Source: Rhizobium sp. GN54 (GTDB lineage Bacteria > Pseudomonadota > Alphaproteobacteria > Rhizobiales > Rhizobiaceae). From it: a DNA stretch of 64,000 bases. The notes below the pieces were generated by a model. That model was not told where the DNA came from. It ran no database searches and saw only the letters and a list, made by a program, of their open reading frames with translations. The position numbers were made by a program, and so were the translations under genes. The DNA is taken from NCBI RefSeq assembly GCF_021026345.1, contig NZ_JAJNCZ010000002.1, positions 186,001 through 250,000 of the forward strand. Direction: 5' to 3'. Below are positions 28,456 through 46,917 of this stretch, piece by piece (position 1 is the first letter of the stretch; every line of letters begins with the position of its first letter).

Positions 28456-28524
28456 GCGGGCAGGGGCGGGGGATGGCCGTTCGCCGTCTCGCGCACCGGC
28501 CGAAGGAATGCCCCTCACCCTGAC

Positions 28525-28666
28525 CCTCTCTCCCCGCAAGCGGGGAGAGAGGACGGAGACGTCGTGCCTCCATTCCCCCAGTCTCTTCCCTTCCCGTCAC
28601 TCCGCTCGCCATGAAGGGGCGGAGACGTCGCGGTCTGCGTCCTTCTCCCCGCTTGCGGGGAGAAGG
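28525..28666. repeat. Pair of rhizobial-type intergenic hairpin repeats
   Basis: Two strong palindromes fill the gap between the monooxygenase and pepP-like genes: CCTCTCTCCCCG/CGGGGAGAGAGG (28525-28536/28541-28552) and CCTTCTCCCCGC/GCGGGGAGAAGG (28641-28652/28655-28666). They are flanked by CCCCTCACCCTGACC and GGCAGGCGGATGAGGGGC, text typical of dispersed repeats in rhizobia. They could end transcription from both converging genes. The gap 28456-28755 holds no supported gene. Confidence 0.75.
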
Positions 28667-28755
28667 TGCCGGCAGGCGGATGAGGGGCAGCCGCACACTT
28701 CGGACGGGCGGCGGATCGGCGCCTTTATACAAACCCTGCAGACGCCCGCTGCCCG

Positions 28756-44118: not shown

Positions 44119-46812
44119 TCACACCCTTTCCACGAACCCGTCGAGCACCTTCTTCTGGCCGGCGCGGTCGAAGTCGATGGTGAGCTTGTTGCCCTCGATC
44201 GAGGCGATGTTGCCGTTGCCGAACTTCAGGTGGAAGACGCGGTCGCCGACCGTGAAGCGCGAGGGCTCGGTCGTTGTCGACTTCGCGACCAGTTCGCCCT
44301 CGATGGTGCGTGCCCGCGGGCCGCTTTCGCCGTAGCCGATGCGCTCGACCGCGTGGCCGGAGCGGCTGCCCCAGTTGTCGCGGGTGGCATCGGTCTTGTT
44401 CTGTTGGGCGCGGCGCCAGCCGGGGGTGGAATAGGCGTTCTGGAACGGCTCCTGCTTGTCGAAGCGCGACTGGCCGTAGCCGCCGCGCCCGCCGTAGCCG
44501 CCATAGGATTGCTCGCTCTCGGCGACCTCGACATGGGCCTCGGGCAGTTCGTCGAGAAAGCGCGAGGGGATGGTCGACTGCCAGAGGCCGTGGATGCGGC
44601 GGTTGGAGACGAACCAGATGTGGCAGTTGCGCTTGGCGCGGGTGAGGCCGACATAGGCGAGGCGGCGCTCCTCCTCCAGCCCCGAGCGGCCGCCCTCGTC
44701 GAGCGCGCGCTGGTGCGGGAACAGGCCTTCCTCCCAGCCGGGCAGGAACACCGTCTCGAATTCCAGCCCCTTGGCCGAATGCAGCGTCATGATCGAGACG
44801 GCGTCGAGGTCCTCGTTCTGCTCGGCGTCCATGACGAGCGAGACGTGCTCGAGGAAGCCGCGCATGCTTTCGAACTGCTCCATCGAGCGGATCAGTTCCT
44901 TCAGGTTCTCCAGTCGTCCGGGGGCTTCCGCCGACTTGTCGTTCTGCCACATCGCCGTGTAGCCGCTCTCGTCGAGGATCTGCTCGGCAAGCTCGGTGTG
45001 CGGGGTGTTCTCCAGCAGTTCGGACCAGCGCTTGAAGTCGGCGACGACGTCGAACAGCGCCTTGCGCGCCTTCGGCTTCAGCTCGTCGGTCTCGACGATG
45101 TCGCTCGCTGCCGCCAGCATCGGGATGTCGCGGGCGCGGGCATAGTCGTGCAGGTTGCGGATCGTGGTGTCGCCGAGACCGCGTTTGGGCGTGTTGACGA
45201 TGCGCTCGAAGGCAAGGTCGTCGGCCGGCTGGCAGACGAGGCGGAAATAGGCCATGGCGTCGCGGATCTCGAGCCGCTCGTAGAAGCGCGGGCCGCCGAT
45301 GACGCGGTAGTTGAGGCCGAGGGTGACGAAACGGTCTTCGAATTCGCGCATCTGAAAGGAGGCGCGCACCAGGATTGCCATGTCGTTGAGGTTGTGGCGC
45401 CGGCCGTTCCTATCCGGCCGCTGCAGGCTCTCGATCGTCTCGCCGACGGCGCGGGCTTCCTCCTCCGAATCCCAGGCGGCGTGGACGACGACCTTGCCGT
45501 CTTCCGGATCGTGGCGGTCGGTGAACAGTGTCTTGCCGAGTCGGCCCTCGTTGTGGGCGATCAGGTGGCCGGCGGCACCCAGGATATGGGCGGTGGAGCG
45601 GTAGTTGCGCTCCAGCTTGATGACCTTGGCGCCGGGGAAATCCTTCTCGAAGCGCAGGATGTTGTCCACCTCGGCGCCGCGCCAGCCATAGATCGACTGG
45701 TCGTCGTCGCCGACGCAGCAGATATTTATCTGCTGCTTTTCGTTTGCGCTCACGCTGTCGCCGCTGCGCGGCTCGCTCCGCGGGGGCGCGCCATCAGGCG
45801 CGACGGCCGCTTGGCCTTGCCGTCCTTCGGACGGATAGGCGCCTACTTCATCCCATGGCCCGGAATTCGGCGCGGCCTGTCCCTCCCCCTCGTGGGGAGG
45901 GGTTGGGGAGGGGTTTTTCCTCGCGGATGACCGTTGCGCCAGCAACCGCAGCCACATGTACTGGGCGGTGTTGGTGTCCTGGTACTCGTCGACGAGGATG
46001 TAGCGGAACTTGTTGTGGTAGTCCTTCAGGATGTCCGGATTGGTGCGCAGGATGCGGATCGGGTGCAGCAGCAGGTCGCCGAAGTCGCAGGCGTTCAGCG
46101 TCTTCAGGCGGTTCTGGTAGGCGGCGTAGAGTTCGCGGCCCTTGCTGTTGGCGAAGGCGCGGGCGTCGCCTTCGGGGATCTGGGCCGGATCGAGCCCCTT
46201 GTTCTTCCAGGTGTCGATCATGCCGGCGAACTGCTTGGCCGTCCAGCGCTTGTCGTCCAGCCCTTCGGCCTGGATGATCTGCTTGATCAGGCGGACGACG
46301 TCGTCGGTGTCGAGGATGGTGAAGTCGGAGCGCAGCCCGGCCAGTTCGGCATGACGGCGCAAGAGCTTGACGCCGATCGAGTGGAAGGTTCCGAGCCAGG
46401 GCATGCCTTCGACGGCGCCGCCGACGAGCAGGCCGATGCGCTCCTTCATCTCGCGGGCGGCCTTGTTGGTGAAGGTGACGGCGAGGATCTGCGAGGGATA
46501 GGCGCGGCCGGTCGCCAGAATATGGGCGATGCGGGTCGTCAGCACGCGGGTCTTGCCGGTGCCGGCGCCGGCGAGGACGAGCACCGGGCCGTCCAGCGTC
46601 TCGACCGCCTCGCGCTGCTCCGGGTTCAGGCCGGAGAGATAGTCGGGCACGCGGTGCTGGTCGCGGGCGGCCATGGCGCGCGCGGCGATGCCGCCGCCTG
46701 CGGGACTGCCGCCCGGGGTCCTGTTGCCGGAACCGGGTGTCGGGGCAGGGGTCTTCTTCAGCGCCGGATCGTCGTCGTCGAAGAAGGGAATGTCGTCGTA
46801 ACCGCTCATCAT
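44119..46812 (-). CDS. uvrD: DNA helicase II (UvrD/PcrA) with in-frame repeat insertion
   Basis: A superfamily 1 helicase acting in excision and mismatch repair. Walker A GAGTGKT lies near residue 83, DEYQDTN (Walker B) near 275, then GDDDQSIYGWRGAEVDNILRF, LERNYRS, TLHSAKGLEFETVFLPG, and LAYVGLTRAK. An N-terminal low-complexity tail and a C-terminal Tudor-like domain (FTVGDRVFHLKFGNGNIASI) match rhizobial homologues. At 897 residues it is longer than usual because about 65 residues are inserted between Walker B and motif III. The insert has low-complexity, repeat-derived text and is open in frame. The start ATG at 46812 follows an in-frame TTG. Confidence 0.95.
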   Translation of the reverse strand: MMSGYDDIPFFDDDDPALKKTPAPTPGSGNRTPGGSPAGGGIAARAMAARDQHRVPDYLSGLNPEQREAVETLDGPVLVLAGAGTGKTRVLTTRIAHILATGRAYPSQILAVTFTNKAAREMKERIGLLVGGAVEGMPWLGTFHSIGVKLLRRHAELAGLRSDFTILDTDDVVRLIKQIIQAEGLDDKRWTAKQFAGMIDTWKNKGLDPAQIPEGDARAFANSKGRELYAAYQNRLKTLNACDFGDLLLHPIRILRTNPDILKDYHNKFRYILVDEYQDTNTAQYMWLRLLAQRSSARKNPSPTPPHEGEGQAAPNSGPWDEVGAYPSEGRQGQAAVAPDGAPPRSEPRSGDSVSANEKQQINICCVGDDDQSIYGWRGAEVDNILRFEKDFPGAKVIKLERNYRSTAHILGAAGHLIAHNEGRLGKTLFTDRHDPEDGKVVVHAAWDSEEEARAVGETIESLQRPDRNGRRHNLNDMAILVRASFQMREFEDRFVTLGLNYRVIGGPRFYERLEIRDAMAYFRLVCQPADDLAFERIVNTPKRGLGDTTIRNLHDYARARDIPMLAAASDIVETDELKPKARKALFDVVADFKRWSELLENTPHTELAEQILDESGYTAMWQNDKSAEAPGRLENLKELIRSMEQFESMRGFLEHVSLVMDAEQNEDLDAVSIMTLHSAKGLEFETVFLPGWEEGLFPHQRALDEGGRSGLEEERRLAYVGLTRAKRNCHIWFVSNRRIHGLWQSTIPSRFLDELPEAHVEVAESEQSYGGYGGRGGYGQSRFDKQEPFQNAYSTPGWRRAQQNKTDATRDNWGSRSGHAVERIGYGESGPRARTIEGELVAKSTTTEPSRFTVGDRVFHLKFGNGNIASIEGNKLTIDFDRAGQKKVLDGFVERV
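45736..45930 (-). repeat. Repeat-like in-frame insertion inside uvrD
   Basis: About 195 bases translate to a Pro/Gly/Ser-rich segment (KNPSPTPPHEGEGQAAP onward) absent from the helicase fold. The DNA has dispersed-repeat character: CCCCTCCCCAACCCCTCCCC-type text near 45893-45914, and small palindromes GCGC...GCGC and CCGTCC/GGACGG near 45788-45835. It is a multiple of three with no stop. Boundaries are estimated from where helicase similarity stops and resumes. Confidence 0.7.
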
Positions 46813-46917
46813 GCGGCCCAATGTAGTGATTCGGGACCGAAAGGCCAGTTGCGCGTTCCTCTTTTATTCCGGTCGCCGCGGCTTGCGGGGCGACCGGATC
46901 GGAGGAAAACGGGCCGC

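Follow-up and report, generated by a model that had tools for sequence, protein, structure and literature searches.

The uvrD gene and its extra loop

The stretch of DNA analysed (the window, 64,000 nucleotides) was found to carry an intact uvrD/pcrA gene, the only match at E <= 1e-100 within the window genome. The features discussed below are listed by their positions in the window.

44119-46821, minus strand: uvrD/pcrA gene, 900 amino acids, intact
45727-45930, minus strand: extra loop, residues 298-365, after DEYQDTN (278-284) and before GDDDQSIYGW (371-380)
~45868-45928, minus strand: half copy of dispersed palindrome A, peptide KNPSPTPPHEGEG
45742-45840, minus strand: multi-hairpin element E, peptide AYPSEGRQGQAAVAPDGAPPRSEPRSGDSVSAN
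45715-45736, minus strand: boundary hairpin GCAGCAGAT-AAAT-ATCTGCTGC, in which the loop codons QQI mirror the host codons ICC
28510-28690, no strand assigned: C-family element with two inverted arms, intergenic, between two convergent open frames

About 65 extra codons separate DEYQDTN (helicase motif II) from GDDDQSIYGW. The reading frame stays open across the whole of this segment, and the Pfam domains UvrD-helicase and UvrD_C flank the loop, one on each side. The open frame and the flanking domains bear out an earlier note on this DNA, which had placed an in-frame insert of about 65 codons inside the gene at 45736-45930; the insert is real, its true span (45727-45930) being nine bases longer. 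Related helicases are short here, as the note had also stated, PcrA (1pjr) having two residues (243-244) at the place of UvrD residues 298-365. On RNA folding the 195-base segment gave a z of -2.82, with 1 of 200 shuffles equally stable. The AlphaFold model of UvrD is poor (28 sequences, mean pLDDT 50.6); a helix precedes the loop and a strand follows it, and within the loop blocks (pLDDT 24-33) it shows no secondary structure. A disordered loop would agree with this but is not proved by it.

Composition of the loop and dispersal of the repeats

Six palindromic families were labelled (A, B, C, D, F and E) on the basis of peptide patterns. A, B, C, D and F have CTCCCC/GGGGAG arms in common and may represent one superfamily. 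Copies of A and B occur as inverted arm pairs. Family B is dispersed, with 89 match rows in G001, a genome of the same genus, and 50 in the window genome; most arms match both strands, and the distinct places, counted from the match listing, number about 47 and 25, respectively. The C-family element at 28510-28690 was called intergenic from the open frames only, intergenic repeat copies in general being judged by open frames and a lack of Pfam matches. B-like peptides also turned up in ten records of a plasmid collection, in two cases under a named gene.

The first part of the uvrD loop is half of palindrome A (CCCCTCCCCAACCCCTCCCCACAAGGGGGAGGG). Ten further places in the window genome match it with 84-97% identity and E-values between 1.3e-11 and 1.2e-5, and several of these have a second, inverted arm nearby. 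Element E consists of several hairpins in succession (NNNNNgaaNNNNN, GGCCnnnnGGCC, GCGCCnnnnGGCGC, CGCGGagcgagCCGCG) with GTGAGCG at its end; no second copy at E < 1e-3 was found in the window genome, the best other matches having E-values of 0.011 and 0.005. The E part scores 116 bits against a model of the dispersed element, of which the window sequence is itself one of the 12 rows. This model, which was built from 12 uvrD copies and favours uvrD among its best matches, finds matches with E <= 1e-4 in 53 of the 121 family genomes searched. At one locus (L314, G020 C31 136544-136836) E appears as three tandem matches about 95 bases apart. A search of ten loci against Rfam returned a tRNA and no other RNA match, on which basis a known structured RNA was rejected.

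The loop of the window uvrD is a mosaic of two elements, an A half followed by E. The repeat-like character of the DNA, claimed in the earlier note, is upheld by the ten A matches and the E score; its picture of one repeat segment gives way to the mosaic. Nor is the segment a private insertion, since other elements occupy the same place in sister species and E is present there in related genera at 87-98% DNA identity. Of the two outcomes that the note had named as refuting, recurrence of the segment in many genera applies to the E part and not to the A part, and so does the lack of a further copy in the genome. The notion of a dispersed intergenic repeat is borne out by families A, B and C, of which the genome has further copies, several apparently between genes.

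Repeats in other genes

In-frame repeats were also found in other Pfam-matched genes of the window genome. UvrB has A, F, C and B fragments in its C-terminal tail, and complete B elements stand at two different sites of CobN (L269, L273; C12 ~397800-400000). C-like arms adjoin one of the two CobN elements. Copies at L002, L004 and L263 precede the first Pfam domain and probably lie upstream of the genes, and no Pfam match was found for ten further frames that span repeats. Among 30 UvrB genes, strict patterns identified repeats in six tails and two N-terminal extensions, and 11 tails were recognised by eye. UvrB of the family often has a long C-terminal tail (L007:1381-2035, window genome C28; L382-L411), in which the motifs SLFRKNSLDEMTVGRTEKP and GSYEDP..KTGRPGR are short and conserved and the spacers variable and partly repeat-derived.

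Of the matches listed for the E model, 90 loci (30 + 60) were examined. Recognised genes hold 25 of them: uvrD 12 (the window included), the N-terminal extension of uvrB four, the uvrB tail six, ileS two and glyS one. The other 65 were judged by eye and not by Pfam, and some of these may be genic; of the 13 genic loci outside uvrD, nine were checked with Pfam and four by eye (L301, L323, L361, L372). In ileS of two genera (L307, L372) E lies in frame directly before the same conserved stretch, DTLRSRAL, and in the glycyl-tRNA synthetase beta subunit (L303) it lies in frame between KCFVTRP and NRLSNHFVL. All 25 genic copies have the same orientation and, by eye, the same frame, with a peptide end like SGDSVSEN. 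The other frames of E would encode Arg-rich or hydrophobic peptides, or a stop, and selection against such harmful frames may therefore suffice to explain the one-frame pattern.

Recurrence at one site in the Rhizobiaceae

The uvrD loop was compared over 192 loci of the Rhizobiaceae (sensu lato), made up of sets of 112 and 80 (named), with some genomes in both. It was long in 141 loci and short in 51 (41-50 residues counted from DEYQ to YGW; e.g. RPKGEPQNVCCV), long loops being over-represented because the loci are best tblastn matches. Labels, of which a locus may have several, were E in 80 loci, B in 24, C in 13, D in 12, F in 10 and A in eight, and 21 loops were long without a recognised family. 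Within the named set the loop was short in 47 of the 80 close relatives and long at every Mesorhizobium, Brucella and Oricola locus.

Seven genomes of the genus were compared, one sequence among them being recorded as Mycoplana azooxidifex. Four of the loops contain E-like sequence alone, that of G001 is a complete B, that of G005 is a B half with E, labelled E only by the peptide pattern and both B and E by the DNA pattern, and that of the window is an A half with E. A single ancient conserved insertion was rejected, as families swap at the loop among sister species. Comparison with G005 and G001 suggests that the window genome may have passed from an older state of B half plus E to its present one.

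Changes were counted by the Fitch method on a tree of 180 unique UvrD proteins with the loop left out; the tree is of a single gene and the counts include losses. Family B required 20 changes in 23 tips (21.8 with shuffled labels), C 13 in 13 (12.7), D eight in 10 (9.9), F eight in nine (8.9) and A four in six (6.0), against 37 in 75 tips for E (57.9) and 12 in 51 for the short state (44.6). B, C, D and F are therefore scattered nearly at random, and inheritance accounts in part for the pattern of E and of the short state.

Lone insertions were found for B in Rhizobium mongolense amid nine short-loop tips (support 0.97), for E in R. terrae amid five (0.88) and, with weaker support (0.60), for C in Ciceribacter selenitireducens amid five. 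B is also present in L043, whose two nearest tips are short-loop Ensifer. In the comparison of filled and empty sites at these lone insertions, the differences go beyond the insert itself.

A search across the class Alphaproteobacteria found UvrD at the cut-off in 108 of 115 genomes. The extra loop is absent from all 46 non-family genomes for which both flanking pieces were listed (61 others and the window genome fall outside this count), with 0-9 bases between the pieces or an overlap of 3-6, as read by hand from the table. This shows the hotspot to be bounded, the loop being absent outside the Rhizobiaceae (sensu lato) wherever it could be assessed. Recurrent repeat insertion at one codon position of one gene appears to be new; no description of a uvrD-loop hotspot was found in the titles, abstract openings and passages of open-licence papers.

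Host hairpins at the insertion site

In 46 short-loop genes, a perfect stem of at least 5 bp (GCAGA-ayg-TCTGC) is present at the right edge of the site in 76%, which ranks first of 1173 scanned bases (per-position mean 0.6%); its presence is partly a consequence of the codons for conserved residues. A stem CGCCC-nnn-GGGCG, 17 bases upstream, is present in 26% and ranks seventh. The second-ranked stem (61%) falls within a conserved motif 15 bases downstream and has no insertions, which weakens the idea that a hairpin is the target.

The boundary hairpin was followed in 32 unique long loops that have QQ[IV]N[IVL]CCV as their end. Its loop codons mirror the host ICC codons, with stems of 8-12 bp in 26 of the 32, and third codon positions switch together, the inner pair being G-C in 12, A-T in 14 and other in six. 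For three pairs the Fisher p values were 2e-4, 8e-6 and 2e-5, from sequences that are not independent and with one, none and three of the 32 rows (neither pattern) omitted. The hairpin is consistent with host sequence having been copied by fold-back, but selection for a hairpin would give a similar picture.

Possible explanations

The reading we favour, and hold to be probable with moderate confidence, is that palindromic repeats have repeatedly landed in the uvrD loop, which acts as a sink for them. In helicase domain 1A the loop falls between one helix and the strand that follows it, a place where extra chain, judging from the alignment, would be tolerated; that the site tolerates it is argued from UvrD of other families, which has just 0-3 codons between the aligned blocks. 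The natural hairpin at the right edge may attract or seed palindromic elements. Repeats that cannot be read in frame would destroy the gene and be lost, and the survivors would be those open in the gene's frame and encoding hydrophilic Pro/Gly/Ser/Glu-rich peptides. Once a first element is in place the loop is nearly free of protein constraint, as its pN/pS shows, and later elements could therefore replace, halve or join earlier ones; replaced, halved and joined elements are seen when sister species are compared. No helpful function of the peptide would be required. Against the sink stand the clustering of E and of the short state on the UvrD tree, which makes much of the pattern one of inheritance, and the fact that neither a transposase (PF01797 being the family searched) nor a target duplication was identified. 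A pN/pS of the loop that is still below 1 also counts against it. Moreover, one frame in all 25 genic E copies and uniformly long loops in Mesorhizobium, Brucella and Oricola (named set) are not predicted by chance tolerance alone.

Another reading, which we put forward tentatively, is that several palindromic families of the Rhizobiaceae enter genes preferentially at natural host hairpins and are kept in one frame only, so that the nucleotide-excision-repair genes uvrD and uvrB would have become nurseries of new protein sequence throughout the lineage. The boundary hairpin, with its mirrored codons and matching synonymous changes, would then be the trace of fold-back at insertion.

Selection was assessed in 40 close pairs, which were picked for alignable loops of near-equal length, a choice that biases the sample towards conserved loops and may depress pS; a few genomes are counted twice. 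The core had a pS of 0.391 and a pN of 0.019, and the loop a pS of 0.262 and a pN of 0.118. With a loop pN/pS of 0.45, about nine times that of the core (near 0.05), protein constraint on the loop is shown to be relaxed about ninefold, yet not gone (pN/pS < 1). The lower synonymous change in the loop may reflect conversion between copies or a role of the nucleic acid.

That the loop is a selected disordered linker, a long hydrophilic arm that UvrD of this family needs, for instance in partner binding, and for which repeats are mere raw material, is in our judgement unlikely. A pN/pS below 1, the one frame of the 25 genic E copies and the long loops found throughout Mesorhizobium and Brucella in the named set speak for such a linker. 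Against it, sister species differ in the sequence of the loop, a short loop is present in 47 of the 80 close relatives with names and just two residues in PcrA, and no common motif was seen among the loops.

It is less probable still that the hairpins act as nucleic acid, uvrD and uvrB mRNA structures altering pausing, decay or protein level. Stem I of E covaries, with 96.7% of cells paired, six of 20 pairs changed on both sides and a covariation score of 0.242, which none of 500 shuffles reached and slid controls (at most 0.062) did not approach, although the rows are related and the shuffle result hence gives no probability. The boundary hairpin also covaries, at third codon positions, and synonymous change is lower in the loop than in the core (0.26 vs 0.39). 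However, one family's structures are exchanged for another's at this site, and the 40 pairs behind the synonymous figures were picked for alignable loops. Palindromes may also perfect themselves through template switching, which could yield the same covariation pattern.

The speculation of Di Nocera 2013 on intragenic REPs, that insertions into repair genes are adaptive mutators, seems very improbable here: uvrD and uvrB host 22 of the 25 genic E copies, found with a search model that came from uvrD copies, but cobN, ileS and glyS are also hosts and the pN/pS of the uvrD core stays near 0.05. Ordinary linker divergence with repeat likeness by chance, for which the 21 of 192 long loops without a recognised family might be cited, is scarcely credible and was rejected in view of complete two-armed elements, dispersed copies and lone insertions, which already contradict it for the labelled loops.

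Comparison with known repeat systems

Rickettsia palindromic elements (RPEs) were reportedly described by Ogata in 2000 and 2002. Passages on these elements describe copies in frame within genes (PMC10969869, PMC2229807), and the likeness to the present case lies in palindromic repeats of ~100-150 bp, both intergenic and in frame in conserved genes, with a conserved peptide. The RPE traits found here are dispersed palindromes with inverted arms (A and B), genic in-frame as well as intergenic copies, and a single frame of E with a conserved peptide. In contrast to what those passages describe, there are six labelled families (perhaps fewer superfamilies), the hosts are Rhizobiaceae, and one codon position of one gene has been hit repeatedly in many genera. 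The Rickettsia precedent drawn in the earlier note is a likeness of kind and not one of demonstrated homology.

REPINs have paired inverted arms with a variable spacer, as do the elements described here. Mobilisation of REPs by RAYT is described in the relevant passages of Di Nocera 2013 (PMC3733652). The Y1 transposase family PF01797 was absent from seven of eight genomes searched (the window genome, G001, G002, G003, G005, G013 and G039) and present in G090; its absence led to the rejection of a RAYT-driven REPIN in the window genome. The same paper, in the passages concerned, reports intragenic REPs, many of them in replication and repair genes (UvrABCD, RecBCD, PolA) and some in tRNA synthetases, notes that in two Xanthomonas the recB gene was hit at nearly the same position, and considers the bias to repair genes hard to call fortuitous (PMC3733652). 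These GTAG/CGTC REPs are likewise short palindromes within coding genes, but the passages concerned of PMC3733652 name no uvrD of Rhizobiaceae, and the same-site recurrence in Rhizobiaceae spans tens of changes. By eye, no GTAG/CGTC tag, which in such REPs marks one end of a stem of 20-40 bp, was seen at the A, B and C arms, and CGTC stands at the foot of stem II of E in many copies.

Br-REP1/2, a repeat with three palindromes in related bacteria, differs, according to passages of PMC5082802, in its 3' untranslated and intergenic location, and its printed consensus differs by eye. With regard to rhizobia themselves, Rhizobium-specific intergenic mosaic elements (RIME) were reportedly described by Osteras in 1995; compared by title only, they are similar as mosaic repeats of rhizobia and differ in being intergenic.

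In-frame palindromes were known before from Rickettsia and Wolbachia and had been noted in repair genes of scattered bacteria; as far as passages of those reports go, these earlier cases offered few events per site and no settled explanation. The uvrD loop presents one codon position with tens of inferred changes, several families, and short-loop relatives as empty sites. The choice of target, tolerance versus benefit, and the question of why repair genes are hit therefore become testable by statistics, and the loop offers a natural experiment on the conversion of mobile repeats into protein.
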